From: Pseudisothecium myosuroides
Lineage: Eukaryota > Streptophyta > Bryopsida > Hypnales > Lembophyllaceae
Direction of reading: 5' to 3'
Assembly (NCBI GenBank): GCA_951799445.1
Contig: OX637287.1
Location: forward strand, 39,523,724-39,587,723
DNA: 64,000 bases
The notes beneath the pieces were generated by a model. The model worked only from the letters and a program-made list of their open reading frames with translations, did not search any database and was not told the DNA's origin. Within the stretch, counting starts at the first letter, position 1, and the number at the start of each line of letters is the position of its first letter. The position numbers and the translations under genes are program-made. Below are positions 4,831 to 61,798 of this stretch, one piece after another.

Positions 4831-5056
4831 TTTTAAACTTATTTTGAAAGCTTATTTTGACAAAAATTTATTTTGAAACCTATTTTAAGAACTACGCATA
4901 GGTGGTTCAATTCTTCATATATAATGTCAATTATTTTTTGGTCTTTCTAATTTCATATATTTTTTCAAAAGCCGTGAAATAAGCCGTTTTAATACCTATG
5001 ACCCCTACGTAAAGTACGTGAGTTGCAAACCCAGAACTGCAAGAATAGGTTTTAGG

Positions 5057-5574
5057 CCCGGGTATGCAACTCCCATATTATATGGCCCTGATTATAATTA
5101 CTTATAATGAATTTTAGTCTAATTTCAAGGGATACAATTTGTTTTAATGTAGAAAACTCTTGTAGCCCTTTTAACAAGGAATCCAAAAATGTAATTATAT
5201 ATATGAAATGATATTTCTTTGGGGACAATAATAGCATTAAAAAAACTAATTATATGAGTTTTTTTAATACATGTATCATAGGACAAGCTACCCAACTTTT
5301 TGGGCTTTTTAATAAAATTTTAATTTTAATTGGAGGGAACTTTTTGTAAAGAATTTTTAAAACTATGCATAGATGTTTCAATTCTTCATATATATTGTTA
5401 GTTTTTTTCTCATATGTATGCAATTGAACATTTTCTACATTTAATTTTTTTATAATTTGGTCTTCACCCAGCTTTTTGGTCTTTTTAATTTGATATAATT
5501 TTTACAAAAGCCGTCCTCTGAGCCATTTTAATGCCGATGACCCCTGTGTATAATACATGAGTTGCGTACCCGGG
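5057..5574 (-). mobile_element. 518-bp non-autonomous inverted-repeat element, 8-bp TSD (copy 1)
   Basis: The ends are inverted repeats (CCCGGGTATGCAACTC left, GAGTTGCGTACCCGGG right). The element is flanked by the exact 8-bp duplication GTTTTAGG (5049-5056 and 5575-5582). A nearly identical copy lies in the opposite orientation at 28162-28678 with a different 8-bp duplication, which fixes the ends. There is no transposase. An 8-bp duplication suits hAT or P superfamilies, but the CCCGGGTA terminus is not one I can assign. The short open frame inside is chance: it overlaps the TIR and is simply shared by both copies. Confidence 0.9.
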
Positions 5575-7490: not shown

Positions 7491-8556
7491 ATGCGATCGG
7501 AGATGGAGTTCAGTTTGGTCCTCTTTATCTGCCTTTATCTCGGTTCGAGTATAATATCGTTTACTCCTGAGTTTTAAATTGAGTTCATCAGAACTGTTTG
7601 ATATCGGTTAATCTGGATTACTACCAGTTTAGAGTGATCATGTTGTCTTCTGGAGTTGATCCTCAATGGGATGACTGGAGTTTTTGATGTACTTGATTGT
7701 CTTTGAAAGGTTTTTCTTGATTCGAGTTAAAGATAGTCTGAATTATTCTAATTTTATTATTGACCCACTTTGATGTTGTTGAAGTGGGTATTTAGGAACG
7801 ATATTATTTACTTGTTTAACTCGATTTGAGTTAAAACTTTCGTACGTAATTTCACTTATATTTTGAGAAAATTATGGTAAACATGGACTTCACAAGTAAT
7901 TGTCATTCAGTTTCCGGGATGGTACGAAGTTTAAGTCAGCAGATCTTCTATTGAGTCTTGAGATTGTTTTTTCTCGATTCCTGAATTGTTAAATTAAATC
8001 ATTTCATTTTTTTAACCTTGAAGGCCTTGAACTCCGGGACATATGTTTAGTGGTGCATACAGGTAGATATGGATAGTTTGCATGTACTCTCTGTTCTTTA
8101 TGTGGTCTGAGATGTTGAAGTACTGATGGTGTGGGTCACCCCATTTTGACTTATGGAGCATTTATGTTCGTAGGACAGTATTTTGACACCGTTGTGTGGT
8201 CTTAGCGGATCATCTCATTTGTTGTCTGTTTTGTTGAAGTGGTGAGTCCGGTTTCTATGTTTAACCATGGAAATTTAAGTCGATTCGAGTGAAAATGGTC
8301 TTGTGGTATTTCTTTGTTTAATGCAGTATTTGTATTGATCTCATCGTACTATATTAATGTCAATTACATTGAAATATTTGTTGACTAATTAGTATGTTTG
8401 ATGTGATGTGATTTTGAATTTATTGCACTCACTTCAACCCGGCTCGAGTTAAACAGTATGTTCTGAAATATCTTTATTTTTTAGTAATCGCATATATAGT
8501 GTATGGTATTTCTTTCAAAGTTGTGTCTGATATCTTCTGCTTTATGTGTAGGCAAT

Positions 8557-22929: not shown

Positions 22930-23349
22930 ATAAAAGCACTACTTCAAAAAGCTTATATATAAGTATAAATTTAAAGACAATATATATACAAATATGAATA
23001 CAAGTATAAATATGGTATAGATGGCTACAAATACGAATACAAATGTGAATATGAATATAAATATGAGTACAAATACAAATTCAAATATAAGTGCAGATTT
23101 GTAATTCCATATTGCTTGCCAAAATGAGGATTCCCAAAACTTCCCGATGTTGAAGATATAAGCAACACATACAGTTATGATCAAATATAAATCAAAATTA
23201 GTTTCCTTCTATAATGGCCTTACAAAGAACATGAGTATTATATAATTAAGACATGGTGTTTATTGCATATCTATACAAAGTATGATACTTACAACAAATT
23301 AGAAATGATCATAATCCTATATATAAATAACTATTTCAAAGGTGTTATT

Positions 23350-26300
23350 TTAAACAATGGATAAGCGAGCTTTTGGAATGGCAGTCAAAGGATGAGCTAG
23401 CACATGTGAAATTCCTTCACCTTCTGACATATCTAAATCCATAGGTTGCAAACCATTACTAGAAAGAGACCAATCAAAAGATTGTAGAAAAGTTGCAACC
23501 ATAATGTGAACCAATGTTGAAGCTAGCATGATGCCTGGACATTGTCTCCGCCCCGCTCCAAACGGTAACAATTCAAAATTTTTGCCTTCCAATTGCATAT
23601 TAGCATGAGGCATCCCATCCAAAAATCTTTCAGGCTTGAAAGTCATAGGGTCCTCCCATGTCCTTGGATCTCGAGCAATAGCTGCAACATTTACTAAAAC
23701 CATTGTTTTTTCTGGTATGTCATACTCCAAAACCTTGCAAGGTTGGGCACTCAAATGAGGAATTAACATAGGAACTGCTGGGTGAAGACAAAAGTTTTCT
23801 TTGACGACAGCTTGTAAATACTTGAGGTGAGGAACATCTGCTTCTTCTACTCTTCGAGACTTGCCTACAATGGTGTCAAGCTCTGCTTGGACCTTCTTCA
23901 TTACAATGGGATGGCGAATGCATTCTGCAATTGCCCATTCGATTGTATCGGTAGTTGTACTAGTACTTCCTATAAAAGCATTCTGTTTTTCAAAAGAAAA
24001 GAAAAGATTAAAGGTGTATTAATTAAAACTATTTACAAGACGAACTTGAAGACTTGAGATCAATAATATAATCTGAAAACTTTCAGTATAAGAACCTTGT
24101 GTTTTTCTTGATGGATTTTTTTAGACATCTACTTATTTTCATGCTAACAATAACATCAATCTTTACATCTTGATGTTACATTTGACCATATTGTTAATTT
24201 GAAAATAGATGGATGTCCACAAAAATTTGTCAAAAAAAACACCGATTTCTTATAGTGTTTTACAAGAGCATAGAAATTTAATGTATGAATGTCATTATAT
24301 AAGTTTCTAATAATTAGATTATGAACCAAAAATGAAAATACCTTCAAGTGGTCCCCTTGTGACTATCTTTAATTCCTTAATTTCAAAAAATTTAACAGTG
24401 AAGTCTTGAATTAAAGAAAAATAAAATATGTTAGCTCTTAATAGTTTTTCTTAATGAAAAGGAATCGCACTCTTACCCACAATGTACTCCTGACGTTGTC
24501 ATTGGTGATGTCAAATTGCAATGTCTCATCCTCCATTTGGTCTAAAAGGACATCTCCCATATCTTTGACAAAAATGGAACCACTTTTTTGTTGTTCAACA
24601 TGCTCAGATATGATTGGGGACATGAAAGCATCCATTCTCTCTCTCAACTCTCGCATTTGACTTTCGAGACCAAAAATGTCCATCCACTTCAAAACAGGCA
24701 TGAAATCACCCGGATTTATAGTTTGAGAATATTCGGCAATGTCCATCAAAATCTTTCTAAAATTGCTCACTTGCTCAAATTCTTGTTCATTATGTTTCTT
24801 TCCCACAGACACTGCCATGAAACGCCTTTTGAGAATCACATGGGACATGATGTTAGTTATAGCCACTTCAATGTAGCTCCTCACAGGCACCACTGTGACA
24901 CCATCTTGGGGAATCACACGCATGACATGAGCGATTTCTTCCTTTTGCACATTTGTTGCTAGTTGAAGTTGTTTGTTGGTGCTGAGTTGTAAGTGTAGTG
25001 TCTTCTTTAAGTGCAGCCTCACAGGTGAGTCTGATACCATGACTATATCTGATATCAAGTATAGTCACAATTGTAAAAAAATGAGTTTCAAACTACAAAA
25101 ATTGCATTAAACTAAGGAAGACTAAAATAAAATGACTTTTATTTCAAGTTAAAAAATGAAGGACTGTCAAATGCCTAGAGTTCTACAAACTAGAAGTGCT
25201 TTAGATTGGAGATGATTGTCAGTTAGACAATTGAAATGACATTGAGATATGACACCCATTATCAACACTGTCGCATTTGTGATAGTTACCTACATTTGGA
25301 TCAAAAAGCGGAAAAGAAAACTAGATATTGATTACTGAAGATGTAGACTATCAAAACATGAAAGTCTATGAAAGCCTACTCTTGGTTTTAGTAGACCTAG
25401 AAACATTATCTTGAAAATTTATAATTTATTCAACATGTCTATGTAATGCATACTAAAGTATGTTGGAATTGTCTTCCAGATGCCAATGAGATCCGTAATA
25501 AAGATAATTCATGTTTAGAAATATTAAATATGCTAAGTTGTCATTAGTGTTGATTATAGGTGCGCATACCTTAATTTTCCTAAACTCTACATTAGAAGAA
25601 GAATGAAACTTGAAGAGGGCCACAAGTTTAGAGAGAGGGGGGAATGCTAGTTGAAAATAGAGGGAAAAGAATTCCCCTGAAAACTACAGGGCAATTGAGG
25701 GAGACTGAATTCCATGAGACAACTTAAATAAAAAATTAAATAAATGTTTAAAAGTTGAAAATTTAACATTAAAATGAATCTGAAATTGCATTTTGATGTG
25801 GCCAAAGTCAGCCACTTGAGATTGCAATATTTTAAAAAAGAATAAAATTTAAAATATTTTTTAAAACTTTATTAAAATAAAATAAAATAATAACAATAAT
25901 AATAATAATTAAAATAAATAAATTCTGGCTATCACTGTTCACTACTTGTAAGGGAGGGAATCCAAATGCGGCCCCATTTTTTTCTCATGCATTCTAATGC
26001 TATCCACCTTGAGCATTCTAGACACTCAAGCTTCTATCTCTTCCATATTTGAAGACAAAATGCAGCTTTCCAAAACACCATCTCCATAACCTCAATCAAA
26101 CTTAGTTTATACAAATGACAATCACTCATTGATTAAGGAAAGGCATGTAACTTTGGGTTGTTCTAGCATTATGATTTTCTGCTTTTAGCCTGTTCATTGA
26201 AGTTATATCCAACAACATGAAATTGGACCTTGTTATGGAAATAACATCTTTCAAACCTTCACCACTTATATGGCAATTGAATATCTTCAATTGCCTTTCA

Positions 26301-27079
26301 AACCTTCACCACTTATAATGTTAAGGCAAGGAAGAGGAGGCAACTCAGTACCTCCAGGAAGAATCACATTGGCAAAAGAGGTTGCAATGCGGCCTGCAAA
26401 ACTGGAGCCATGAGTCTTGAGAATCTCCTCTGCTGCTGCTGGGGAGGTAGCCACCACAACTAGCCTTGGGCCCAACCGTTAAGCACTCTTGAGTCTGCTC
26501 CCATTACGAAGTAGTCCTCATTATATTGCGTAATGTCCCTGTTATCGTGCTTGGCACCCGTTACGGTGCCAGGCACGATAACAGGAACATTATAGTGCCT
26601 GGCACTGTAATCGGCATATGGGCCTCGTGCTTAACGATGTGGGAGGGCCCCTCCCTCAGGCCTCCCTGGCTTTGAGGACCCTGCCCCTCAGGCTCGGGCT
26701 CCCGCCCTCACCTTCGCGGCAGTGCCCTCACAGCCCGGGAAGCCTTCGGGAGGGGGCCTCCCACTATACATAACGACATCAATGGCCCATAAGTCTCGGC
26801 CAGTTTGGCAAAATCCCGCTGTGGGAATTTTCCCAACAAGTGCAAGGAACCGATGACAGGGAGCCCCCGTGGGCCTGGAGGCAAATTCTTGTATTTGCTG
26901 CGTGTGAGCAGCTTGGCAAGCAGAAGAAGGCCAAGCACCACTGCACTGGCAACCTGCACAGCACCATCGCCACATTCACGTGGTTGCACACAGTGAGTAA
27001 TAGTTTGAGCAAAACATTTTCGTTGAGACTTCACTGATATCCACACATTCATCTGGTTGCAGATTAAGTTTGAGCACAT
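23350..27079 (-). pseudogene. P450 locus 3: full-length cytochrome P450 pseudogene
   Basis: Same three-exon layout as the copy at 39.5 kb. Exon 1 is about 27017-26352 (interrupted), exon 2 is 25048-24477 and exon 3 is 23982-23350, with GT-AG introns at the same positions. The membrane anchor, PPGPRGLP hinge, FKPERF and heme loop FGAGRRQCPG are all legible. Lesions: (1) about 290 bp inserted in exon 1 between the PLMSL and LGPRLVVV segments, removing a W; (2) one extra base just after the ATG that corresponds to the start in the sister copy; (3) the K-helix ExxR reads ENFC, losing the arginine needed for heme-pocket folding; (4) the I-helix acidic residue is Ser. It is therefore not a working enzyme. 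Intron 1 (25049-26351) and intron 2 (23983-24476) hold no other genes. Confidence 0.85.
26478..26765. mobile_element. GC-rich palindromic insertion in P450 exon 1
   Basis: Present in locus 3 but absent at the matching point of the sister exon (42215). It is much more GC-rich than the rest of the window in its right half. It contains a near-perfect hairpin at 26538-26585 (20-bp arms starting CCTGTTATCGTGC, 8-base loop) and a second inverted pair, ATGTGGGAGGGCCCC against GGGGGCCTCCCAC, around 26636-26768. The exact ends and a target duplication are not clear. Confidence 0.6.
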
Positions 27080-27690
27080 TTTTGAGGTTTAACTGATAAC
27101 TACACATGCAATCTGTGGAGCATATTGGCTAACTTGAAAAAACATTTGGAGATTAAAATGACATCTACACATTCATGTCGTTCTACTGATTTGAGAAAAC
27201 ATTTTGAGACTCAACTGATATAGATACTCATCTACCCATTCCTATGGTTACACATAGTATCTAGTTTGAGCAAAAAATTTGAGGCTGAACTGATGTCATC
27301 ACTCAAGAGGGTGAGCCTGCATAAGATTGTTTGGAAAAAGCAGAGAAAGGAAGCGTACACTCCAAGCTCCAGAAGGCATCATCATTGTCACCATGGCCGA
27401 GAAAATTGATGGCCAGGCTTGTTCACTTTGAATGCAAGTGAGCAAGTGGTGTTCAAAGAAATACTCAGAATTCGCAGTCACAGGACTTCAGTGTTAGTGC
27501 AAATGGCTCCAAGTGGCCACAATGTTGTTCAAAAATCAAAATGTACGCAAGACAGACAGTATGCTATTGGCAGTGCATGCTGGCTCCCATTATAAGGGTG
27601 CACGAACTCTCATAAACTAAGCATTGATAATTCAAGTGGTCAAGAACAATGTGTCAGATTCCACAACCTGGTACTTTGAAATTGGCAAGT
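27080..27690 (-). promoter_or_regulatory. Upstream flank of P450 locus 3, conserved among P450 copies
   Basis: 27410-27690 matches 42798-43060 and 14326-14515 (gcaagtgagcaagtg, ggcactgcatg.tggctcccattata, gtgtcagattccacaacctgg.a). Conservation in three copies beyond the coding region shows the promoter was duplicated with the gene. A 'cattataag' TATA-like motif lies near 27592 on the plus strand; no core promoter could be assigned with confidence on the gene strand. Confidence 0.45.
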
Positions 27691-39115: not shown

Positions 39116-39498
39116 TATATATCCATGACTGTGAAATTTTATCCATAAAATGACACTATCCTAAGAGCGAAAAAGGTATGCACAACCCATATAGACCTTC
39201 TATCTAGAATTTCAAAGGCTAAAGCATAAGAAAAGTGTAGACATGGACATATTGTAAATGGACTAACAATCCATAAGAAGCATTCATACCCTCCAACATT
39301 CAAAGAAATTTGCAAGCAATATATATAGCTATGCATAAATATAAATTAAAAAAATTCACTCTACAATCAATATAAAAGAACATGATTATTACATAATTAA
39401 GAAATGACATTTTTTACATATCTATACAAAATGCGATACTTGCAAACAAATTGCACATCATATTTTATATATAAATAGTTATTTTGAATGGAATTAAT

Positions 39499-42466
39499 TT
39501 AATAAATGGACAAGCGAGCCTTTGGAATGGCAGTCAAAGGATGAGCTAACACATGCCCAACTCCTTCACCTTCTGACATATCTAAATCCATAGGCTGCAA
39601 ACCATTAGGAAGAGACCAATCAAAAGATTGCAGAAAAGTTGCAACTATAATGTGAACCAATGTTGAAGCTAGCATGATGCCTGGACATTGTCTCCGCCCA
39701 GCTCCAAATGGTAACACTTCAAAATTTTGGCCTTCAACCTGTATGTGAGCATGAGGCATCCCATCCAAAAATCTTTCAGGCTTGAAAGTCATAGGATCTT
39801 CCCACGTCCTTGGATCTCGAGCAATTGCTGCAACATTTACAAAAATCGGTGTTTTTGCTGGTATGTCGTATCCCAAAACCTTACAAGGTTCTTCACTCAC
39901 ATGAGGAAGCAACATTGGAAATACTGGGTGAAGACGAAAGGTTTCTTTGACAATGGCTTGTAAATATTTCAGGTTAGGAACATCTGCTTCTTCCACTCTT
40001 CGAGACTTGCCTACAATAGTGTCAAGCTCTTCTTGGACCTTCTTCATTACAATGGGATTGCGAATGCATTCTGCAATTGCCCATTCTATTGTATCGGTAG
40101 TAGTATTTATACTTGCTGCAAAGGCATCCTATTTTTCAAAAGAAAAACAAAAGATTAAAGGCGTCTTATTAAAAACCTATTCAAAAGATGGAACTTGAAG
40201 TATTGAGATTAGCAATATAACTTTAGCACTTTGACTAGGAAATAGTAACCTTAGTATATGAATTTCATCATCAAACAAAACAAACAACCTCAACATGAAA
40301 ATACCTTCAAGTATTCCGCTTGTGAAATTATTTCACTTTTTCACTCAATAATTCAAATGGCGAGGTCTTTGTTACAAAAAAAATAATATACAATACATAA
40401 GCTTTTATTAACTTCTATTTAAGGAAAAAAGAATTGCACTCTTACCCATAATGTACTATTGACGTTGTCATTGTTAATGTCAAATTGTGATGTCTTGTCC
40501 TCCATTTGGTCCAAGAGGACATCTGCCATATCTTTGACAAAAATGGAACCACTCCTCCGTTGCTCAACATGCTCAGATATGATTGGAGACATGAAAGCAT
40601 CCATTCTCCCTCTCAACTCTCGCATTTGTCTTTCAAGCCCGAAGATGTCCATCCACTTCAACACAGGGATGAAGTCTCCTGGATTTATAATTTGAGAGTA
40701 CTTGGCAATGTCTACTAAATTCTTTCTAAAATTGCTCACTTGCTCAAGTTCTTCTTCATTATGTTTCTTCCCTGAAGCCACAAGCATGAAACGCCTTTTG
40801 AGAATCATGCGTGACATGATGTTAGTTATGGCTACTTCAATGTAAGTCCTCACAGACACCATTGTGACACCATCTTGGAGAATCACACGCATGACATGAG
40901 CGATTTCTTCTGTTCGCACATTTGCTGCTAGTTGAAGTTGTTTGTTGGTGCTAAGTTGTATGTGTAGTATCTTCTTCAAGTGTAGCCTCACCGGTGAGTC
41001 TGATACCATGGCTACATCTGATATCAAATATGTTCACAATTGTTAAAAAAAAGAAGATAATTTTCAAACTACAAAAATTAAATTGACTAAAATCAAATGA
41101 CTTTCAATGCAAGTTCAAAAACAAATGACTTTAGATTGGAAATATGAGTTAGACAATTGAAATGGTATTGAGGTTTACACATCCATTATTAGCACTATCC
41201 AAAATGCGATGTCCACATACATTTGGATCAAGAAGCGTAAAAGAAAATGACATATTGGTTGTCCAAGATGAAGACTATCAAAACATGAAAGTCTTGCTTG
41301 TGTGGGCGCTCTTTGTGTTGGCGCACAAGGAGGGGGTTTGTCCCTCTACTTGTTCCTAATGGGGATTAGGTCCATGGTTTGCCACGGTGGTGTCAAGTCT
41401 GTCCTAGCTGTGGCTTTTGAAGGCCATATGTTTAAAAAAAAAGAATGAAAGTCTATGAAAGTCTATTCTTGGTTTCTTGGTAGACCTTGAGACATTATCT
41501 TGAAAATTCATAACTTATTCATACATAGTCCATGTAATGCATATAAAAGTGCGTTGGAATCCTCTTGTGGTTTCTAACGAGGTCTAATAAAAATAATTCA
41601 AGTTTGGAAATATGAACTATGCTCAAATGTCATTAGTGTTGATTATAGGTGTGTATACCTTAATTTTTTTAAATTCCACCATCCTACTATTAACCATCTT
41701 AAGCATTCTAGACACTCAAGCTTCTATCTCTTTGATGTCTGAAAACAAAATGCAACGATCCAGAACAATAACCTCAACCAAACTCAATTTGTACAAATGG
41801 CAATCATTCCCTGAATAAGGAGAGACATGTCATTTTCCAAAACTTTGGGTCCGTCTAGCATTTATTTAGAGTTTTATGCTCTTAGCCTGTTCATTGAAGT
41901 TATATCCAACAACATGAAAATGGAGCCTTGTTGTGGAAACATCCCTCGGACCTGCACTCACTACCACAGTTTGTATGTTACTTCTCATAATAAGGTCGTA
42001 CTTTCACATTACATTCAACATCTTCACAGACAAGTTTGAATCTTATTCCCAAGGGGAGGAAGAGGAGGAAGAGGTAAACATCAGTACCTCCAGGAAGAAT
42101 CACATCTGCAAAAGAGGTTGCAATTCGGCCTGCAAAACTGGAGCCTCGAGTCTTGAGAATCTCCTCCGCTGCAGCAGGGGAGGTAGCCACCACAACTAGC
42201 CTTGGTCCCAGCCATAGGGACATCAATGGCCCATAAGTCTCGGCCAGTTTGGGAAAATCCCGTTGCGGGAATTTTCCCAACAAGTGCAAGGAACCGATGA
42301 CAGGGAGCCCCCGTGGGCCTGGAGGCAAATTCTTGTATTTGCTGCTTGTGAGCAACTTGGCAAGCAGAAGAAGGCCAAGCACCACTGCACTCACAACCTG
42401 CACAGCACCATCACCACATTCACGTGGTTGCGCACAGTAAGTAATAGTTTGATCAAACATTTTCAT
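39499..42466 (-). CDS. P450 locus 4: plant cytochrome P450 (CYP71-clan type), three exons
   Basis: Exons are 42466-42088, 41017-40446 and 40128-39499, with GT-AG introns. The joined product is 526 residues, normal for a microsomal plant P450. Visible: membrane anchor about 22-40, hinge PPGPRGLP 48-55, I helix about 319-333 ending TTTDTIEWA, K helix ETFR 379-382, FKPERF ending at 437, and heme loop FGAGRRQCPG 458-467 with Cys465 as iron ligand. Such enzymes sit on the endoplasmic reticulum and hydroxylate small metabolites with a reductase partner; the substrate cannot be told. Oddities: the I-helix consensus (A/G)GxDT reads ASINT, with Asn for the acid, and the helix-C Trp-Arg pair is changed (PVRLHLKK). 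The start at 42466 gives an MKM start; 42487 and 42460 are alternatives. Expression and activity are unproven. Confidence 0.82.
41294..41444 (+). mobile_element. 151-bp poly(A) retroinsertion in P450 intron 1
   Basis: Absent at the corresponding place in locus 3 (25348-25360). Flanked by the duplication ATGAAAGTC (41285-41293 and 41445-41453), with a nine-base A run before the right copy. These are the marks of an L1-type retroinsertion, either SINE or truncated LINE. No tRNA-like boxes were seen. Confidence 0.75.
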
Positions 42467-43094
42467 TGAGACTCCACTGATATCCACACATTCATATGGT
42501 TATGCTTAGTGTAGAATAATCTAGTCTGGGCACATTTTTGAGATTTAACTGATAACTGCACAAGCAATCTGTGGAGCATAGTGACTACTTTGAGAAAAAA
42601 GCATTTTGAGACGAAACTGCCATGTACCCATTCCTATATATGGTTGCACATAGTTTCTAGTTTCAGCAAATTTTTGAGACTAAACTGTAGTTGATATGCA
42701 AAAGGGAGAGCCTGCATAGGATTGCTTGGATAAGAGAAACGTACACTCCAAGCTCCAGAGGGCATCATCATTGTGGCCATGGCCGTGAAGATTGATGGAC
42801 AGGCTCGCACAATTGGAATGCAAGCGAGCAAGTGATGTTCTGGAAATACTCAGAGTTCACAGACACAGGACTTCAGTGTTAGAAGCTCAAATGGCTCCAA
42901 GTGCACATTGTTGCTCAAACAAAATGAGAGACAGTCAGTTTGCTTATGGCACTGCATGTTGGCTCCCATTATAGAGCTAGGGTGCACGAACTCTAGTAAA
43001 ATGTTAAGAATTCAAGTGGACAAGACAAACGTGTCAGATTCTACAACCTGGTATTTTGAAATTATCTTTTTGAGTCACACTGACCATGTTGCAG
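42467..43094 (-). promoter_or_regulatory. Upstream region of P450 locus 4
   Basis: 42790-43060 is shared with loci 1 and 3. Repeated phrases 'ttgag...aaactga' and 'cacattcatatggtt' mark small local duplications upstream of the start codon. 'ctatatatgg' (around 42636) is a possible TATA region on either strand. No transcription start can be fixed. Confidence 0.4.
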
Positions 43095-48508: not shown

Positions 48509-49042
48509 ACATTGGGTTATTTGCAACGACGCTAGCATGTGAGCGTGGATTGCGTGAGCCTAGAGCCTAAAAATATAAAACATGATGTAATTTCTAAATT
48601 TTTTGGATTAAAAAGTTAAAAGTTTGAAAATTTGAATTTTTTTAAAATTATATTTAGTAAAATATAGTAAAATATATATGACCTAATACCACGGGACCCA
48701 CGACCGTGGATTTTTGATTTAAAAGCCTGGGAAGCTGGTGCTATTGCATGATTTGAAATTTATATCATATTTTGAGAAGCCTTCTCAGGGTAGTCTGATG
48801 AAGTGAGAGTACAAATAATTAATTTAGAGGCAATTCCAAGGATGAGAAGAAAACAAATGCAATGAAAATTCTATAGGATGTAGAACATTGTGTAAGTAAT
48901 AAAATATTCTTTCATTGCAGAAAGGGATACATATTGAAATATGACTATAATATTTAACTACTTGAATTTGAGGATATTGAAGATAATATATCGATACTGC
49001 CTATCTACTTTATACTATGCTAATATCTGTCAATTAACTTGG
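48509..49042. other. No gene; diverged end of the 249-bp MITE family
   Basis: 48524-48550 (gcaacgacgctagcatgtgagc) resembles the left end of the Mutator-type MITEs at 14526 and 19409; the other end is not clear. The remainder is AT-rich 3' flank of the MULE-like pseudogene. Confidence 0.4.
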
Positions 49043-52000
49043 TCACTCACATGTCTTGATGATTCCGACAGCAACAAGCACTTGCTTAACTTCATCCAAG
49101 CTGAGGGTAGGAGCATGGATGAACGTGTTTGTCTTATAATCCAGTTTGCAAAAATAACGAAAGATGTAATAAAGGTGTTTGCAGTTGATATACATGCCAC
49201 GCTTTCCAATAGAGGTCCCGTTCATACTTCCATAATGGGGACAAGTACAAGAGGGAAAGTTACAAAGTGTGATGTTGTAAACCTTCTCGTTAGGTTCAGT
49301 GCCGGACAGAAGTGTAATAATAGCACCAAGTCCAGGGTAGGGAAGGAAGTTCACCCCAGTAATACTTGTAGTAACATTCCTTGCACTTTCCCACTGATTG
49401 CGGTGATTTTCGGTAGGTGCTTTACTGCTCCGACGAACCTGCTTGCCATTCCGAATAGAAGGGATTCTTTCGGCATGTGCTGGTCGAGGATGACTCCACA
49501 ACACAGGCTCAAATACCTTAGACAAGGTAAACAAACGTCGAGGTGACATCGGCACGTTGGATTGCAGGCGGAACCCAGCTTCTTCAAGCTCTATAATTTC
49601 AGTATGGGTGAGATTGGTATCAGTAAGAACAGGCCAGACTTTGGGAATCTCGGGTCGAGTAAGAACATGAGAACGTTTAGGTCCCATGACGCATCGTGCA
49701 ATTTGGTCTGCACAGAACCAAAAATCCTCGGTCTGAACTGCCGTGCCTTTATATTCTTGCTTTTGCCCTCTATAAGTAGGGGCAGCAGTGGGTTTTCCAT
49801 GCCTAACAATTAGTAGCTTGCATTTGGCTTGTGTATACTTCTGAATGGCATGACACTGTTTCCTTGACTTGTGTGAAATTCTTGCTATGTGCCATTCCGA
49901 TGTATCGCAATCCGTTTCCACTACAGATTGAGTATGGGGCATAACAGTATGAAACTCCTCAACTACAGTCTCAAGTTGCACTCTAGCATTGGTTGATCTA
50001 GTTTGAATCCGAGGATGAGAGAAGTTCACCTTGTCTGGGCAATGAGAATCACCTTCGGACCCGATCGGAAGATCCGATTTCCTTTTGCTGGACTCAAATA
50101 CTTCTTCCCCCTCCAAGTGCGGAATTCGAGTGCAAATGTCTTTCGCTCCAGGCATTTCACTAAGTGCGTCTGCAATTTTCTTTCTATCTCCAGATGCCAT
50201 AGCCCTCTTCAGTTTCAAATCTTCTTTAGAAGGGCCTTTTCCAGAAGGGCCTCCGCACAGATAAGCCCTATAGTTGGTCATCTGCATAAAGGCTCAAACC
50301 CAATCATCACACGTGGCCACGAACAAATCAGACCCGCGTTTCCCGGAAGCTTGCATCCATTTGTTGTACACTGTTTCAACCAAGTTGCATGTTTGGATGT
50401 CTGCTAGTTCCTCTATTGTCAATTTATGCCAAGATGACAAATAAAGTCATTATTCAAACGGTTTGTAGTTTAGGATAAGAAATAGGGGAAAAAATAATGA
50501 GAGTAAAGGTTCTTACCGTTTCCATAAATCCACCCCACTGACGATATCAAAAGTGCCAAAATGCGAGCCAATCCTCAAGTTCACGAATAGCTGGTTCTGA
50601 TGCAGCTCCGGAGGAGTACCACCAAGCTCTAATTTCTAAATACATCTTGTCTGCTTCGGATATTGATGTCGCATCCTTGTATTGCCTGTAGAGTCGAATA
50701 TGTTGGTTTTGGAATTCTTTGGCGATTAGCTTCTCCGTATGCTTGTGCATGCTTGTTGCCCATTGGAATGGATGGATCTCCTGACCCATACACAATGCGA
50801 ACTGCATTGAAGTTTGCTTAAGCACTATCACACATGAATCCCTTGAAGTTTGGATCCGACACCCCATTTTTCACCATGACCTTATTCAAACAGCGCCAAA
50901 AAATGATTTGGCCTTTGGTTCCCTCAGTCTGCATATCACATACGGCAATGGTCATGACTTTGCAATAAGTAGAGTCATAGATGTGACAAGCAATAGTTGT
51001 CCATAATTTCACCCTCTTCACATGATCAAACATGATAAAGCAGTTTTCTAGATCGCCACTTGGTTGCATCCGTCGTACAAGATCGACTCCACTCCCAGGT
51101 CCATCCACGAGCATCTTGAACAAATAGACCTTGTCTTGCCCTTGTCCCGGGAATACACTATCATGAATGTACTCCATTTTAGCACGTCCCTTCATATCAA
51201 GAATCCGATCAATCTTGCCAGCACCCTTGCTGTTGCTCCGAAAAGAGGATATCATGTTGCGCACATTAGGCGAGCTAAGAAGTTGGAACTTATCCATGAC
51301 ATTCTCTAACGCATCGCCATGGAGCATCTCTTTTGGTCCGGATCCATTGTGAATAAGGAACGTGTCGAGGAACTCCTTGCTTGCTGCCATGGTAATAGCG
51401 GAAGTTTTGGCGGTTGAAGTTCTAGCTACTTCGTGAGCGATAAGCCCGGTGATTGCTTCAAGAGACTCTCTACACTGGCTGTCAGCAACTGGATGCAAAT
51501 GGACACCCAAGTGGATGCACACACGCGACAAATCTCCAGTTCTGAGTACGTAGTAAATCCGCGAGTTACATAGATTGAGGCAAGTAGGAGATTGTCTACA
51601 AACTTTACACAGCACAGTAGAGTTTGGCGGAGGAATCTGACCTAGGCTAAAGGAATGTTTTGTGGTCCCAATCCACTCAGTTTCGTTACTCTTTGAAGCT
51701 CGTGTGCGGTACTCACATTTCATATTCTCACAGATCAAATGTCCAATACAGTGCGACTTTCTGAATTTTAAACCTAAGTCATTATGGATGTTTGACGTCA
51801 TGGTGCGACACCACGTGTGACCGTCATATCGTTTATCCATGCCCTCCATGCCTCTAGCTCCACATGTAGATCCACGAGATGGTGGCAACTCAAAGAGAAT
51901 GTCACCATTGAATCTAGCCGGGAGAAACTGAACCTTCTGGTATTCTATAGCATCAAAATCAATCTGGGCAAGTTCATTCCGTGATCCAGACACTAAAGAC

Positions 52001-52638
52001 AATTTGTGAAGGCATTGCAATACACTAAGAGAATCACGTTGATTGGGAGGGAGAGGAGGACGAGAAAATCCAGATGATGCAGGACTACTAAGGATAGTAC
52101 GGAAGGTAGTAGGAATGGATGAATCCACCATACATGGCAAAACAACATTCGAAGAGGAAGGTTGTTGACAAACTTTAATTGGCGTTTCACCTTCAGAATC
52201 ACTAGAGAACTCTATCATTGATTCTAGGGACTCACGTTTAACATTGTTGACATTGAACAAAATTATATTCTCAGAGCATCCACTATCTAGAGACTCCACT
52301 TTTATTGGACGTAATACTAGGCGCTCAATAGTGAACTCATCAGAAATGGGTGGAAGTATTTCAGTCGAAGCCGGCAAGGGCTTTGGTGAGAGACCATAAA
52401 CTCTATAGCGTCCTGCATGAAGAAGCCAGTAGAATCCTTCATGATCGCTACATCTTGCCTGCAAAATAGATTCCTTAAGAACGCCGTAGTCACCTTGGAC
52501 TTCTTCCTCTACGACGATAGAAGAAGGGAAAAATCCAAAGCGGACATGAAGGAGATGGGCGGGCACATGTACAGAACCTTGAGTACCTAATGGTAAAACA
52601 AATGGGACCTCATGGCCTTTAGCGACAATACTAGCCAT
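49043..52638 (-). pseudogene. MULE-like transposase with SWIM zinc finger, multiply broken
   Basis: A long open frame runs from ATG 52638 to TAA 50818-50820 (606 residues). It continues in frame past the stop (ANFNAVRIVYGSGDPSIPM), shifts frame near 50760 (TSMHKHTEKLIAKEF...), meets TGA after LAFWHF and probably crosses an intron (donor near 50521, acceptor near 50400). After another TGA at about 50290 it is open again to 49043. Near its C terminus it carries CTCPHYG followed 20-odd residues later by CKH, the CxC..CxH SWIM finger typical of MULE transposases. The block FDHVKRVKLW...FWRCLN...FMCDSA fits the DDE core of that superfamily. The three stops can each arise by C-to-T change of CAA or CGA. 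No terminal repeats were found. It is divergent from the gene at 53.3 kb. Confidence 0.75.
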
Positions 52639-53320
52639 AGTGAAGCATTAAAGAAAATTGTGGGCAACAAACAACACCAAGAAGCCAAAAAAATGAAGCT
52701 TGGATATTTGCAATTGCAGAAGGTGTGGATATAAAGAAGGAGAGACTTGTAGGTTCATTTCGAAGAATAGGAATTTTTACCTGTATGTACAAAAATTTGA
52801 AATTGGATTGATGATTGGAATGCTAGTTATTGCATATCATATCAAGATTTGATATAGAAGAAGGTATGTGAACAACATCTAAAATGGAGGTGGGTAAGGC
52901 GGCGTATTATACGTCATCAATTAATACATCACCGATAATAAATGAATTATAATACAAAGTACGTAGCAATTTGTATCAGACCATGCTGGCAGAGTTACAA
53001 CAAGCAGTGACAGGAGATGATGTGTCATCATGCATTATACTGTATGATGACCTATGACATGCATGCAATTATGATTATATATCTAGAGACCGTTTAAGAA
53101 TCTTGTGGTTGATGATGATATGAGTAACAGACAAATAAAGCCGGCATTTTTGTAATAAAATGAAATTGTAACTTTGTGGAGAGAAGTTGTGTAAGTCTCT
53201 TAGAATATAAAAGCCTATTGAAGAAGATGAAGTAATGTGTAGAAAGGTATGTTCCAAAGAGTGGGTGATGTAGTATGGAGGATGTTGATATTGTAATGCC
53301 TTGGTAGTTGATTATTTCAG
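52639..53320. promoter_or_regulatory. Divergent intergenic region
   Basis: Lies between the start of the MULE-like gene (minus) and the presumed first exon of the ParB/methyltransferase-like gene (plus). AT-rich, with no open frame of note on either strand. Probably holds both promoters; no core element is assigned with confidence. Confidence 0.4.
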
Positions 53321-54149
53321 ATGCAAGAGAACTTCCTTTCTCCATTGTTAACGTTAGACACTTCAGTAAAGGATAGGAAGAAGAGGAGGAAGAAAAGTAG
53401 CTTTCGTTATTCCAGTAGAAGGCAATTGTTGAAGGCTAGAATGATTAGAGGGTTGCCTCGGATCACTGCAACTGATTTGCCGGGCACAACGAGGAATTTA
53501 ACATATGAAGGTATTGTTTCGTGTGAAGCAATTCGGGAGGATATCGTGGAAGGTGAACCCATTTCACGTGAAGCAATTCAAGAGGATATTGTGTAGGGTG
53601 AACCCATTTTATGTGAAAATCAACTGGATATTGCCTCAGGTTGTAGTGATTTGGATCAATACAGTAGCAAAGAAGAGGAAGAAGAAGAACATCAACCACC
53701 ATCAAAGTTGGAGCTAGAGTTCGGAAGTATAATGAGAATGGTAAGAAAACCCTAAACCCAAGTGATATTGACTTTGAATGTATGTGAAAAAATTTCTTGG
53801 ATTCAGATTTAGCAACTACATCATTTTGTTTGCGTCGAAAGCACGATTCCAACGATATATAGCATGTAAAAAACGGATACATATTGAAGAAGTTACGGCC
53901 TAAAAACTAATTCAGCATCTTGGAATCTGGCCTGAAATCTTCAGATTTGGCTGATTTTTAGGCCAAATCCAGCCTTTCGATGTTTAGCAGTTTTGGCTGA
54001 TTTTTGTAAAGTTGTAGGAATGTCCAGAAATTCTGAAAAAAATTAGAGTGAATCTCATGCGTAGAATCTATGGATTAAAAAAAAATTGGCTCAAAATCTT
54101 GAGAACTAAAGAAGTTATTCAGAAGATTCTCTTGAGGTACATCTACCAA

Positions 54150-54182
54150 TTTTTGCCTTTTTTTTTTTTTTTTTTTTTTTTT
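54150..54182 (+). repeat. Poly(T) tract
   Basis: A run of more than 20 T bases lies in the long presumed intron 1, upstream of the minisatellite. Confidence 0.9.
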
Positions 54183-54409
54183 GAGTACGGTTTACCCTAA
54201 ACCTTGTCACATCTTTGGACGTCGTCTTTGAAGGTTGGGAGGCAACAAGCGCATACGGAGGAGGAAGGTGGAGTTACCACCATGGAGGAAGGGGAGGCTG
54301 CGGCGGATTTGGCGCAGCAAGATGAGCATGGAGGAACAATGAGCAAAGCCAATGAAGGGACAGCAAGCGCTCGGAGTGAGGCAAATCCATGTGCTTTTTT
54401 TTTCCTGCT

Positions 54410-56160
54410 TGCCTTCCCAGACCCCAGCCGTTAATGGCTACGCTTTTTCGAGTTCCAATTTAGGAAACTCTTTGCTGAAATTTCGTCAAACACTGAATTC
54501 TTTTCTACCTTCCCAAACCCCAGCCGTTAACGGCTACGCTTTTTTGGGTTCCAATTTAGGAAACTCTTTGCTGAAATTTCGTCAAATGCTGAAATTTTTT
54601 CAGCCTTCCCAAACCCCAGCCGTTAACGGCTACGCTTTTTTGGGTTCCAATTTAGGAAAGTCTTTGCTGAAATTTCGTCAAACGCTGAATTCTTTTTTAC
54701 CTTCCCAAACCCCAGCCGTTAACGGCTACGCTTTTTCGGGTTCCAATTTAGGAAACTCTTTGCTGAAATTTCGTCAAACACTGAATTCTTTTCTACCTTC
54801 CCAAACCCCAGCCGTTAACGGCTACGCTTTTTCGGGTTCCAATTTAGGAAACTCTTTGCTGAAATTTCGTCAAATGCTGAAATTTTTTCAGCCTTCCCAA
54901 ACCCCAGCCGTTAACGGCTACGCTTTTTCGGGTTCCAATTTAGGAAACTCTTTGCTGAAATTTCGTCAAATGCTGAATTTTTTTCAGCCTTCCCAAACCC
55001 CAGCCATTAACGGCTACGCTTTTTCGGGTTCCAATTTAGGAAACTCTTTGCTGAAATTTCGTCAAATGCTGAAATTTTTTCAGCCTTCCCAAACCCCAGC
55101 CGTTAACGGCTATGCTTTTTCGGGTTCCAATTTAGGAAACTCTTTGCTGAAATTTCGTCAAATGCTGAAATTTTTTCAGCCTTCCCAAACCCCAGCCGTT
55201 AACGGCTATGCTTTTTCGAGTTCCAATTTAGGAAACTCTTTGCTGAAATTTCGTCAAATGCTGAATTCTTTTCTACCTTCCCAAACCCCAGCCGTTAACG
55301 GCTACGCTTTTTCGGGTTTCAATTTAGAAAACTCTTTTCTGAAATTTTGTCAAATGCTGAAATTTTTTCAGCCTTCCCAAACCCCAGCCGTTAACGGCTA
55401 CGCTTTTTCGAGTTCCAATTTAGGAAACTCTTTGCTGAAATTTCGTCAAATGCTGAATTCTTTTCTACCTTCCCAAACCCCAGCCGTTAACGGCTACGCT
55501 TTTTCGGGTTTCAATTTAGAAAACTCTTTGCTGAAATTTCGTCAAACGCTGAATTCTTTTCTACCTTCCCAAACCCTAGCCGTTAACGGCTACGCTTTTT
55601 CGGGTTCCAATTTAGGAAACTCTTTGCTGAAATTTTGTCAAATGCTGAAATTTTTTCAGCCTTCCCAAACCCCAGCCGTTAACGGCTACGCTTTTTCGGG
55701 TTCCAATTTAGAAAACTCTTTGCTGAAATTTTGTCAAATGCTGAAATTTTTTCAGCCTTCCCAAACCCCAGCTGTTAATGGTTACGCTTTTTCGGGTTCC
55801 AATTTAGAAAACTCTTTGCTGAAATTTCGTCAAATGCTGAAATTTTTTCAGCCTTTCCAAACCCCAGCCGTTAACGGCTACGCTTTTTCGGGTTCCAATT
55901 TAAAAAAGTCTTTGCTGAAATTTTGTCAAATGCTGAAATTTTTCTAACCTTTGTAGACCCCAGCCGTTAACGGCTACGCTTTTGGGGACTTAGAATGCCT
56001 TGCACCATATGTTCGAATGTAGTCAACTGTTGAAATTTTCAGGCCTTCCCAGACCCCAGCCGTTGACGGCCATGCTTTTGGAGGCATCAATTTCGGGGCG
56101 ATGGTTTCTATGGAGAACTTAGATGCTGAAATTTTGGGGCCTTACTAAACCCAGCCATTG
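54410..56160 (+). repeat. 96-bp minisatellite, 16 units in two 8-unit blocks plus diverged edge units
   Basis: Units begin 'ccttcccaaaccccagccgtt' and are exactly 96 bp, so one frame stays open through all 16 units (54352-55947). Two unit types differ at the end: type A encodes LNSFL and type B encodes L(K/N)FFQ. Their order is A B A A B B B B, then the same again, pointing to duplication of a 768-bp block. Two or three diverged units follow to 56160. Each unit carries the palindrome AGCCGTTAACGGCT. The array lies in what I take to be intron 1 of the ParB/methyltransferase-like gene. Confidence 0.9.
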
Positions 56161-59100
56161 CTGGCTAGTATGTTTTATTACATAGTTTATAATAAATGTA
56201 CACAAAGTAGAACTTCTTCTAATCAAGATTTAAACATTATTTCAGAGATGTTGACAGATGGAGATCCACAAGTACGAGCAGTAGATGTTGTTGTTCAACT
56301 TCTTTCTAAAGATCAATTGGAGTTGCAATTGCATGGCTTTTTGAAGAAGGAGACTGTGAACACTTCTTCGCGTCTCGAGCGGTTGAGATACCAACCCAGG
56401 GCAAAGTCTAAAATTAATATTCCTTTATATCGTATGATCTCTTTGCCGGTTGTGAGGCCTTTCTTGAAGAATGATGTGATGAATCTAGTTGCACATTTTG
56501 TCACTTGTGGTTACATGGAATGAAACGGAGTTTTTTATGTGGCTTTGGAGAACAATGAGGGGAAGACAGTAGATGTCACGGATGACATTGTTAAATCATG
56601 GAGTGCCAACTGGGTACAAGCAAATGCTGCTTTTGAGAAAGAATTGCAGAATGATGAAGATCTAAAAGTTTTCTCTGGCAAGATGTTCATGGTTTGGGAT
56701 GGCAACCATCGTTTTGCAAGCATGGTTGCCTCTTATCAATCGTGATCATACGGACGACTCTATATGGCATTATGCTGTTGAAAGCATTATTTTCGAAGTC
56801 AAGGGGGACATTGCAACTATGCTGGCAGCATTGCATGAAGTCAATTGGTAATCCTTTTTCTTATTTATCAGTTTTCTTTTCATTTCACTTCTTAGTTTCT
56901 AAAGCTTCTTTGATATGGACCATTGTAATAGTTACAATTCTATCTTTTGGAGAGTTGGGTGTTTGCTTCACATGTTTTAACACAATCAATTTTGTGGTGC
57001 TAGGAGAAACCAGAAATCCCATGTTTCCATAAATCTTGTTCACAAGCTCTATCGCATTCAACGTATTGCTGCACAACCGCTCTCATACTTTGAAAAACTT
57101 GTCTCCAAAGAGGATCTGGAGGCACTTGAAGCCAAACAAAAGTCAAAACAACGAACTTGGTTCACTCTCACTCTTGAGGCTCTAAATGGAGTCTTATACC
57201 AGGTTCATTTCTAAAGTCTTATTTTCTATTTCATATTTTTTCAATTCTTTGGTCTTTTTTTTGTTCTTTTTGTTAATTTCAATGAATTATATCTTGCTCT
57301 GGTACTATGCATAACATGTATTATCATGTATATTATGCTTATTTCTATATATCATTTACTCTATGCAGCAAGAGTTGGGGAACGCTGCTGCTGCTACTCA
57401 AAGGAAATTTTACGAAGAGTATCTCAATCCAGCTGATTGGACTCCAAATGCAGTTCATGAATGGGTCTCCAAAGCTGTTGAGAGGGTCAAGGTAGTTTCT
57501 CATTCAGAGCTGAAGAAACAACTCCCCATTGCAGATCCTAAGCACACGATGGCCTTCTTGGAGCAGGTGAAGTGTCACTATGAAACTCATGACGAGAGTC
57601 CAGAGATGACTCAAGAAAAACTTTGGATGCTAGCAACTTCAGTAATGGACACTTCTATGAAGATCAAATGGCTAGAGAGGTGGAACAAGTCTTCTTCTCT
57701 TCGTGAGGCTCTCAAATTCCCTAAACCAAAATTCAGTGATATTGACTTCCCTGAGTGGCTTCATAAAGCTACATGGTGGGTTCAAGTGAGTACTTCTCTT
57801 TCTTTTTCCTGTTTTAGTATTATTTCCTTTAAACATTTTCAGTTGATCATAACATTCTTCTAACTTACAATTTTTGTGTGGCAGTTGGCTATTGAGATAG
57901 AAAAGCTTTTCAATGCTACGGTGGCTGATCTAGACGTGTCTATTAACTATCTTCCTGATAGTATGGATCCTTTGCCCACTATTTTTGATTATGTGGAGAC
58001 AATGCGTATACTGTTGTGGGATACTGCATTCTTTCGTGAGTTTGCTGTGGATAAGGGGATTCACAAGAACCATAAGATTGAAAAGCAACTCAACTTCAAA
58101 CCAGCCATGCAAAGGGTGCTTTATAGGTACTTCAAGTATGTTCTTTTCCCTGCTAAAGCCATTTTCAAATCTCCCACTTTCTTTGCAAATTATTTGGACA
58201 AAGAAAGTGAAGAGTGCATGTTTACAGAGGGGATTATGAAATTTTGGGATCCCATGCATTGGAAAAAGTGTGGATGGTATTTGGATTGTCCCCTCAAAAG
58301 ACCTCCTACTTTTGACATTGCCCTTCGAGATTCTATTGAACCAGCTCTCAAAGGCACAGTTGTAGCTATTCCTAAGACGGTGGACAAGGATGCAGCCAAG
58401 AAGACCAAGAAGACCAAGCTCAAGCCAAAGAAGTTAGTAGTGAAGCTTGATGATTTTGATGAAGATGTGCCAGTTCAAGACAGTCTCAAAAACCTTGTTG
58501 TTACAGGACCTTCTTCTTCAAATGTTGAGGCAATACTCCCTGCTTCAAAGCGGCAAAAGACAACTTCTACTCCCGTGACTTTGGTGCCAACCTCCTCTTC
58601 TATCATTGAGCTACCTCCTAAGCTTAGGAGTATGATGACTTCTTTGGCACCTTTGTCTACAAATCATACATCTTTAGATTTGATCTTGAATGATTCTTTT
58701 GTTAGAATTATTGAGGAGAAGAAGAAGAATGGTACATTTGCTGCACCATATGACGACATTGTGGCTTTTCTATCAAAGGTGAGTTAATTCTTTTTATAAT
58801 TTTTTTATTTCATGTTTTATATTGTTATAAAATCTTACATGTTATTTGAAAGCCATCTCTTCTAATTCATAATATTCTGTGACTTTGACTTGTTCAATCA
58901 TGAATTAATATTCTTGAAATTTATCTTTGTAGGTTGGTGAAGGTAGAGATTTCTTTTTTGATGGAAAAGTGCAAAAGAAACCTGCCGTGGACCTCATCAT
59001 TGCAGAATACCCAGATGGTCTTTGGGTTCTAGGGGTGTCAAATCCGCCATTTCAAATTCCGCATTGGAATGCCAGCATTCCAAGTTTTCTCCACGTTATG

Positions 59101-60321
59101 ATGGCATTCTCTCTTACCTATCTTCATGATGATGGAGCATTCTTTCTATTTTATCCTGATAGTCCTACAATGAAGAGAGAAGTGGCAAGATTCTTCAAGA
59201 ACTACAAGCTAAAGGTCAAGGATGAGTGGACTATTGTGAATTGCTTACACTTGGCAAATCCTATGAATCCATCTAAAAATGTAAGTAGCAATTTCAAGCT
59301 TTCATTTTTGGCATTGATTCAATTCTTATTGCAATTCCTTTGATTGCATGTACATTTTCTAATTTTAATTTGATTTTGATTTTCAGACTCTAAAGTTCAA
59401 GGCTTTATTGTTGGTTCGATCATTGGCCTCTTCCATTACAAGGCAACCTCAAGAGCTTGTGATTACTACTGATTCTTCAATTCCCAAGGTTGATTTAGCC
59501 ACAGACGACGTTCTCTTCAATTCTATTACTACGGAAAATCAATCATGCAGAAAGGAAGATGGCAAGCCATGGAGGGGTACTAAGGAGAAATCAGAGGTTT
59601 TAATGAAGATTTTTGTTCATTGCTTGAGCCCTATAAGTGGCATTGTGGCAGATATGACTGCCTCTACAGGTATTGTAATCTACAATATTGAATTATTTTT
59701 TATTCTATTTTTTTGTTTGATTTTTTTTCTACACTGCAATTTTGATGTTTTCATAATTTTAATATTGTGTTTCATCTAGGTTCTTCCATTAGAGCGGCTC
59801 ATTCATCTAATCGCCATATCTTAGCACTAGAGAGTGATACCAAACTCTTTGATGAGGTATTGAAGCCTTTGCAAACACCTATAGCCGTCTCCAAGACTCT
59901 TGATTCTACTACTACAAGCGATGGTATGGAGATTGATGATGACTCTCCAGTTGAAGACGTTGCACTCCTTGACTTATGTGAGTAAGTTTTATTTTATGTT
60001 TTTCATTTTCAACAACTTCATTTATAAATTTTATACTTTGTATTTTAATTTGTTACTACATACTCTGATATATGGTTTGTTGTCTGCAGTTGGATGAACC
60101 CATCACTAAGGCAAAACTTGCCTTTTTATCGACACCCTGGATTTCTTAGAAGTCCCTCTCTCAGTCCTCGTACCCTCCCAGTTTATGCTGAAGATTTAGC
60201 ATTAGCTTATGCTAATGCTTCATCTGATTCATCTTCAGTTTCTCTATCACCTCATAGATCTTATGATCCTAGAGTATGTTCTTATTTTGAACTCAGTGCA
60301 TCTGAGTCAGACGATATTTGA

Positions 60322-61798
60322 GTTTCTTTTCATGATTTGATATTTGATTTCTATTGTCTTGTTTTTCAAATTGAATCTATTTACGTATGATGTGGCAATA
60401 GTTCCATTCTTTGGCCTAAAACTTCACCCTATGCCCAAATTGAACAATAAATCATGAGCCTTGAATTACACTCCACCATTCAACTTTATAAAATTCTACA
60501 AAGCAGAGTTTAATATGGCACTCAATGAAACTACTACCATTCAATTTATTATGTAGTCTATTTGTTAAAAATGATTTTGATTTTCAAAAAAATAAAATTT
60601 GAAACAAGACAATTCAAAAAGAGGGGCATCAACTATAAAAATAGTCGTCTAGGTCAGTCGAGGTTAATACATTTATTTAATTTACAATATATGACTACTA
60701 TGGTTATTTTAAATATTCAATGTCCAAGATATTTTTGTTTTTATTTTAAAGCATACCCATAGAAGCCAAATATAAATCTGACTTTGGAAATATATAGATT
60801 CATTTTTTTGATACAAAATCACATACCGGCATATTCATTTGTTGTTCATTTGGTCTGTACATCCTTACATCTAATTCCACGGTCATAGGTCTCCAACAAA
60901 TTTATAAACCCTAAATGAAAAAAAAATGGAGGCTCACAGGCTCACATACTAGCATCCCCGGGTTATCTGTACTACAAGATGCATCCTTGGGAGACGTGAA
61001 TATGCTGCATTGTGATGGAAGACTGGTGACAGCTGAGGTTTCACTGCAAGGCAATACCCAACAGGACAAGCAGGACAGACAAGCAATAAGGTAGTGTGCT
61101 CTAAAAGTGAGCGGCCTCTTCAAATCGACCCTATATTTGGGTATGAAATGGACATTAGGTGGTCCTTAAATAAACCTCTCAAGCCATTGAGAGAATCGAG
61201 AGAAAAGCTTTATTTATTACAAGAGCCAATCATTGACCTTCATTTACTCAAATCACTTTAGAAGTTGTAAGTGGTCAGATTTTGGAAGACCTAGGGTCAC
61301 AAATAGGTGCCTACAACAAAAAAATTTGAAAATTCATAAGTAATTCAAAAACGATTCAAAAAATATGAAACCACTTGTTTAACGTTCCGCATCCATTTTT
61401 CTTTCTTTGAAAAATGATCCACAAATATATTCTAGTTCAAGGAAACTTGTGAAAAAGGCAGATCAGACCTTAAATGGTCGCTTTTAGGCCATACTACCTT
61501 AGACCGCCAAATTCATCACCAAGTTACCATGTGATGCTCCAGCAACTCTTGTGATACTCTCGTTCAGAAGGGAGCCTCCCATGTCATTTTAGCAATTCAG
61601 CCTGCTGCTAGAACCCTAGAAGAGCTTGAACGCCACCTCGTCCCATCTTGACCGAGGCACAAAGGCTACACCAAGCAAGCAAGGAGACCCACGTACCTAA
61701 TTAAGAAGCAGCCTATACTTGCCAATGTAAATCCACTCAAAATAGGATAATAAACAGTTTTTTACCAATGAGGCAGCCAGGGGGCTTGTTTGCATCCA
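60322..61798. other. 3' flank and AT-rich sequence, no gene
   Basis: No gene seen. 60930-60962 ends in 'ggctcacatactagcatccc', the complement of the terminal motif of the 249-bp Mutator-type MITEs, so a diverged member may lie here; its other end is not visible. Small frames near 60911-61123 have no family character. Confidence 0.35.

Follow-up and report, generated by a model that had tools for sequence, protein, structure and literature searches.

The 64,000-nucleotide stretch of DNA presented above (the window, as we call the whole of it) contains, on its forward strand between positions 56246 and 60321, a gene of eight exons that combines a ParB/sulfiredoxin (Srx)-fold domain, a linker and a permuted methyltransferase (MTase)-like domain. 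We interpret it as a recently inactivated copy from a multicopy, intron-containing and probably land-plant family, and most likely as accessory to a DNA transposon that carried, besides it, a divergently oriented, SWIM-bearing transposase-like gene. We put the probability of this reading at about 0.6, and within it we infer that the gene belongs to the transposon.

Gene structure and coding state

About 1,059 codons are distributed over the eight forward-strand exons, and the seven introns between them are uniformly of the GT-AG type, measure 99-166 bp and lie within 56848-60089. The ParB/Srx-fold domain occupies exon 1 (56246-56847), with the segment WDGNHR at 56695-56712. The linker spans exons 2 (57004-57202), 3 (57369-57785) and 4 (57885-58778), the first two being open frames with GT-AG boundaries and the third being covered by a database relative, P0001. 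Exon 5 (58933-59280) holds DLIIAEYPDG (58990-59019), the probable motif IV position with EYPDG replacing DPPY, as well as the strand GAFFLFYPD (59134-59160). Exon 6 (59387-59669) contributes the motif X-like KPWRG..EKSEVLMK and the first half of motif I, ADMTAST(G), starting at 59648; exon 7 (59780-59981), in which SSIRAA lies at 59782-59799, carries the remainder of motif I, a helix and ALESD (59824-59838), which supplies the motif II acid; and exon 8 (60090-60321) encodes the C-terminal tail and the stop codon. A sequence-only reading made before this analysis had quoted these motifs (GNHR, DLIIAEYPDG, GAFFLFYPD, ALESD and others), and all of them are present, but the distance of about 650 residues that it gave between GNHR and DLIIAEYPDG shrinks to about 567 on the exon coordinates.

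This copy of the gene is broken, as had been claimed: exon 1 contains an in-frame TGA at 56521 and, immediately 3' of the GNHR codons, a frameshift revealed by comparison with relatives. When joined, exons 2-8 yield 857 amino acids (aa) with zero internal stops, and the damage looks recent because all of these downstream codons remain open. A retroposed origin is ruled out by the retention of the introns.

The eight spliceosomal introns originally proposed are thus seven GT-AG introns plus an eighth, upstream one that is only provisional. It would follow an equally provisional forward-strand exon (53312 to approximately 53743) with an ATG at 53321 and a frame that is open save for one stop, an in-frame TAG at 53594. 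None of the relatives seen matches this exon, which may be non-coding 5' sequence, and for want of such a relative the TAG was dropped as a certain lesion. A 45-bp unit, of a length divisible by three, is repeated 2.1 times within the same exon (53523-53617). The provisional intron encloses a tandem array of 16.4 copies of a 96-bp unit (54411-55983), and a translated stretch similar to the array region precedes exon 1 in the relative P0054.

A multicopy family of eukaryotic genomes

Database searches returned 170 proteins related to parts of the gene. The full 857-aa query matched a single protein, probably because prokaryote-type gene callers split plant genes at their introns. Exon 5 alone, on the other hand, retrieved 51 relatives (E from 4e-58 to 4e-14), and a query joining a piece of exon 1 to a piece of exon 6 retrieved 118 (E from 3e-55 to 3e-13), split between exon 1 (109 proteins) and exon 6 (nine). 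With relatives in such numbers and at such E values, the gene family lies far beyond chance. The multicopy relatives that the sequence-only reading had anticipated therefore exist; they include members with an intact exon 1 as well as frame-shifted copies such as P0128 and P0142.

The exon boundaries seen in the window are also visible among these relatives, many of whose frames continue beyond the exon ends where the window has introns. Exon 5 is covered to its end by 46 relatives. In 39 of them the first or second residue beyond it is valine (a GT-codon), mostly as VS or VR, so that the splice donor is kept; isoleucine takes this place in another six and the remaining one ends there. Relatives matching exon 6 likewise run past ASTG into intron-like sequence. 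Identity over exon 5 ranges from 44 to 90%, and the exon 1 tree, which has 66 rows including the window, shows several deep branches. Alignment A3 was built from 67 of the 109 relatives of exon 1, A4 omits P0001, P0038, P0047 and P0050-P0052, and A6 served for reading motifs only.

No close relative was confirmed when viral contigs, and likewise bacterial and archaeal genome contigs, were scanned with two peptide patterns each, and a tblastn search of the C-terminal part against phages gave one non-significant place, found in two records of one phage. The gene is a member of a multicopy, intron-containing family of eukaryotic, probably land-plant, genomes, and horizontal acquisition of its ParB-methyltransferase module is plausible. 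The window itself is taken to come from a land plant on the strength of a short TTTAGGG-type repeat, of its P450 genes and of general knowledge.

The ParB/sulfiredoxin-fold domain

The structure predicted for an exon 1 relative adopts a ParB/sulfiredoxin (ParB-CTPase) fold, in which a strand (residues 188-192) is followed by a helix (194-207). The expected GxxR-type motif after the strand is present, and reads GNHR in 84 of 94 relatives. The ParB-like and permuted amino-methyltransferase-like architecture put forward at the outset is upheld by this fold model together with the region matches described below. The profile by which the first domain was to be recognized, PF02195 (ParBc), gave no match in repeated Pfam searches, so the domain is not filed under that family, and global hhalign comparison of exon 1, or of exons 1 and 2 together, with ParB was without success.

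A methyltransferase-like domain with an altered active site

For the C-terminal region (exons 5-8), three comparisons concur in assigning the succession KEKSEVLMK, ADMTASTG and ALESD to motifs X, I and II. PHROG 3008 is matched at E=2e-4. An hhalign comparison with nine beta-class enzymes from phages gives P=3.9e-5, with 60 shuffles reaching a probability of at most 1.55. Pfam N6_N4_Mtase (PF01555), the other profile suggested beforehand, matches this X-I-II region at E=0.013, its 15.9 bits falling below the curated cut-off of 26.7. Elsewhere, a sequence search of the PDB with exons 5-8 found only a designed protein, nothing came close to any cut-off in NCBIfam, and P0001 matched neither Pfam nor the PHROGs.

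The claim that motif IV precedes motif I, as in beta-class enzymes, fares unevenly. Exon 5 taken alone finds its best hhalign place with DLIIAEYPDG on motif IV, at a weak P=0.017 that is barely above all 60 shuffles, and the motif order is probably the permuted, beta-class one; the catalytic (D/N/S)PP(Y/F/W), however, is missing at the aligned position from all 47 rows, 36 of which keep [ED][YF]PDG instead. Judged by its motifs, the domain looks methyltransferase-like by descent, but since DLIIAEYPDG lacks the catalytic signature, neither a working enzyme nor a working DNA-modification module is to be presumed. The SNPPF at 59038 was considered as the canonical catalytic motif and rejected, given that hhalign weakly prefers EYPDG and that a downstream [DNS]PP, starting eight residues past the glycine of [ED][YF]PDG, occurs in only 29 of 46 relatives.

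It is conceivable, if doubtful, that the family nonetheless comprises active N4-cytosine/N6-adenine DNA methyltransferases, with EYPDG or a nearby [DN]PP[ST] acting as motif IV and intact copies writing N4-methylcytosine (4mC) or N6-methyladenine (6mA), whether in a transposon or in a host setting. The majority of relatives that do possess the downstream motif, the similarity over the S-adenosylmethionine (AdoMet) region and the fact that bacterial-type 4mC enzymes function in eukaryotes, as reported for bdelloid rotifers and Marchantia in the portions of PMC8885841 drawn on here, would all agree with such activity. Yet [DNS]PP is found at the aligned motif IV position in none of the 47 rows, an aromatic residue takes the fourth place of the downstream motif in just two of 46, EFPG or the like stands in for that motif in P0001, P0033, P0036 and others, and motif I reads DMTASTG (in seven of nine relatives) rather than DPF.GSG, leaving the AdoMet motif FxGxG without a match although its first acid and last glycine are retained. 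With the active site so changed, an active enzyme seems no more probable than a pseudo-methyltransferase that binds DNA.

Genomic setting and alternatives to a transposon gene

On the opposite strand, and divergent from the ParB-MTase-like gene, lie two open stretches of 609 aa (50821-52647) and 416 aa (49046-50293), the second of which contains a SWIM-type CxC-x19-CxH motif at 49249-49175. We infer that both are parts of one broken transposase-like gene. MULE transposases bearing SWIM domains are known, and the label rests on this general knowledge together with the layout. A targeted scan located putative ends for an element bracketing the two genes: a candidate left terminal inverted repeat at 48524-48548 (forward strand), preceded by GGTTATTTG, and a candidate right one at 60936-60960 (reverse strand), followed by GGTTATCTG. 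The 25-bp inverted ends are alike at 18 of 25 positions and the flanking sequences at eight of nine; the pair is a weak candidate. Within 1.5 kb of both genes, an end pair of this kind appeared in none of 300 shuffles and in two of 268 natural flank pairs. The resulting 12.4-kb interval (48524-60960) is a candidate element only.

Several observations weigh against assigning the gene to a transposon. The transposase-like frames have no Pfam match and no confirmation in any library searched, and a sequence search of the PDB with the 609-aa frame gave unrelated rows only, at E of 0.72 and above. The end scan tried six duplication lengths, of which 9-bp duplications gave two hits against one in a reversed control and 8-bp duplications four against one; a stricter complexity filter missed the 48524/60960 pair, and with larger flanks an end pair is seen in two of 25 natural pairs. 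To these may be added the seven introns with their widely kept exon 5 donor, the divergence within exon 5 and the deep exon 1 branches, and the failure of blastn to find long terminal repeats, all of which would sit well with an ordinary plant host gene family, domesticated or vertically inherited, that merely adjoins an unrelated broken transposon. We regard such an origin as unlikely, for the relatives are numerous and include shifted copies, a divergent transposase-like gene and candidate ends are present here, and the published algal cases are, as far as PMC12477816 describes them, accessory genes of transposons. The original proposal left the choice between a domesticated module and one carried by a mobile element, and it is the mobile half that gains from the algal accessory genes and the transposase-like neighbour, what speaks for domestication being confined to conserved introns and divergence.

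A last alternative, that the C-terminal similarity is due to chance, leaving the ParB/Srx-fold domain as the sole genuine one, would agree with the sub-cut-off matches and with the failure of exons 5 and 6 without exon 7 to beat shuffles (P=0.075), both of which also count against our interpretation, but it is very improbable in view of three comparisons hitting the same residues, the best of them out of reach of shuffles, and of the frequency of ParB-N6_N4 methyltransferase fusions in phages as surveyed in the relevant part of PMC12704722.

Possible mechanism and relation to known systems

If the gene is indeed an accessory gene of a transposon, its ParB-fold domain would bind nucleotide and DNA, and would load the protein onto the sequence of the element itself, where adenine N6 or cytosine N4 might then be methylated by the methyltransferase-like domain; alternatively, as the presence of EYPDG rather than DPPY at motif IV leads us to consider, that domain might only bind DNA or AdoMet and thereby recruit or block host chromatin marking. 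With either option the element would mark or protect itself, both DNA methylation by the protein and its self-targeting being suppositions of this scheme. Some plant MULE elements encode anti-silencing proteins. By analogy, a rather speculative and quite unlikely extension is that a land-plant transposon lineage made a sequence-specific pseudo-methyltransferase out of a ParB-methyltransferase of phage type. Such a protein would clamp the element's DNA through its ParB fold and, with a catalytically altered domain retained for binding DNA/AdoMet, would shield the element from host silencing without methylating it, as an independently evolved analogue of those proteins.

The closest parallel comes from a brown alga. 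The Sola1-1_Ec32 transposon of Ectocarpus encodes, on the strand opposite its transposase, a 1,104-aa protein with ParB-like and N4/N6 methyltransferase domains, for which the authors envisage a possible self-binding, self-marking accessory role, and for green and red algal cases they refer to a review from 2011 and to a paper on Bostrychia from 2025 (PMC12477816, in the sections that treat this element). Compared by description only, this protein and the window gene are alike in both domains and their order, in a size of about 1,100 residues and in lying opposite a transposase or transposase-like gene; they differ in that the former belongs to Sola1 in a brown alga, whereas the latter lies in a presumed land plant next to a SWIM-bearing transposase-like gene.

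In phages, a survey of the ParB fold reports frequent fusions to N6_N4 methyltransferases (PMC12704722, as excerpted here). Such fusions, for instance Gordonia phage Fugax gene 85, share with the window gene the succession of a ParB fold and a beta-class methyltransferase, and related phage ParB-like proteins, among those considered, share a GNHR-type motif with it; Fugax gene 85 is, however, only 404 aa long, lacks the long linker and the introns, and has DPPY and DPFGGSGS. As a separate observation, gene 39 of Corynebacterium phage EmiRose (L001, 1535-2737), annotated as a hypothetical protein, is a clear N6_N4_Mtase (E=6e-29).

Two eukaryotic enzymes offer a further comparison, again within the portions of PMC8885841 mentioned above. 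The bdelloid rotifer N4CMT resembles the window gene as a bacterial-type permuted amino-methyltransferase with conserved introns in a eukaryotic nuclear genome, but this 4mC enzyme carries a chromodomain instead of a ParB fold, has been shown to be active and is not presented there as a transposon gene. The Marchantia 4mC methyltransferase, mentioned in the same paper, is similarly a land-plant N4 methyltransferase of bacterial origin, but has no additional domains and acts genome-wide in spermiogenesis.

No description of a ParB-methyltransferase architecture in land plants was found in the open-licence literature searched. As far as that literature goes, this kind of architecture is already known, and the novelty here lies in a branch presumed to be of land plants, in the changed active site and in a partner gene with a SWIM motif. 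What looks like a large branch in land plants, its introns and its altered active site both conserved, would join the brown, green and red algal cases, and it suggests that a phage-type domain fusion has long been established in eukaryotic nuclear genomes. A transposon equipped with a DNA-binding, DNA-modifying protein of its own could place epigenetic marks on itself or prevent them, and the family makes the question of writer or binder directly testable in a plant.

Other features of the window

Outside the region of the two genes, a pair of inverted 519-bp segments, 99.8% identical and some 22.6 kb apart (5056-5574 and 28679-28162), encloses a DUF7869 frame at 8500-10752, and could represent either the termini of a single large element or a recently duplicated smaller one. 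The frame belongs to a long forward-strand open stretch (8500-11367) that matches DUF7869, a domain-of-unknown-function family, at E=1e-42 and that continues in frame, after one stop, for 204 further open codons. A duplicated segment (23160-27683 and 39314-43063) contains cytochrome P450 frames on the reverse strand, its matched pieces being 75-88% alike at the DNA level. The window also includes a short TTTAGGG-type repeat and a tandem array at 1954-4199, in which a 169-bp unit is repeated 12.6 times (2065-4199) and which can also be read as a 343-bp unit.

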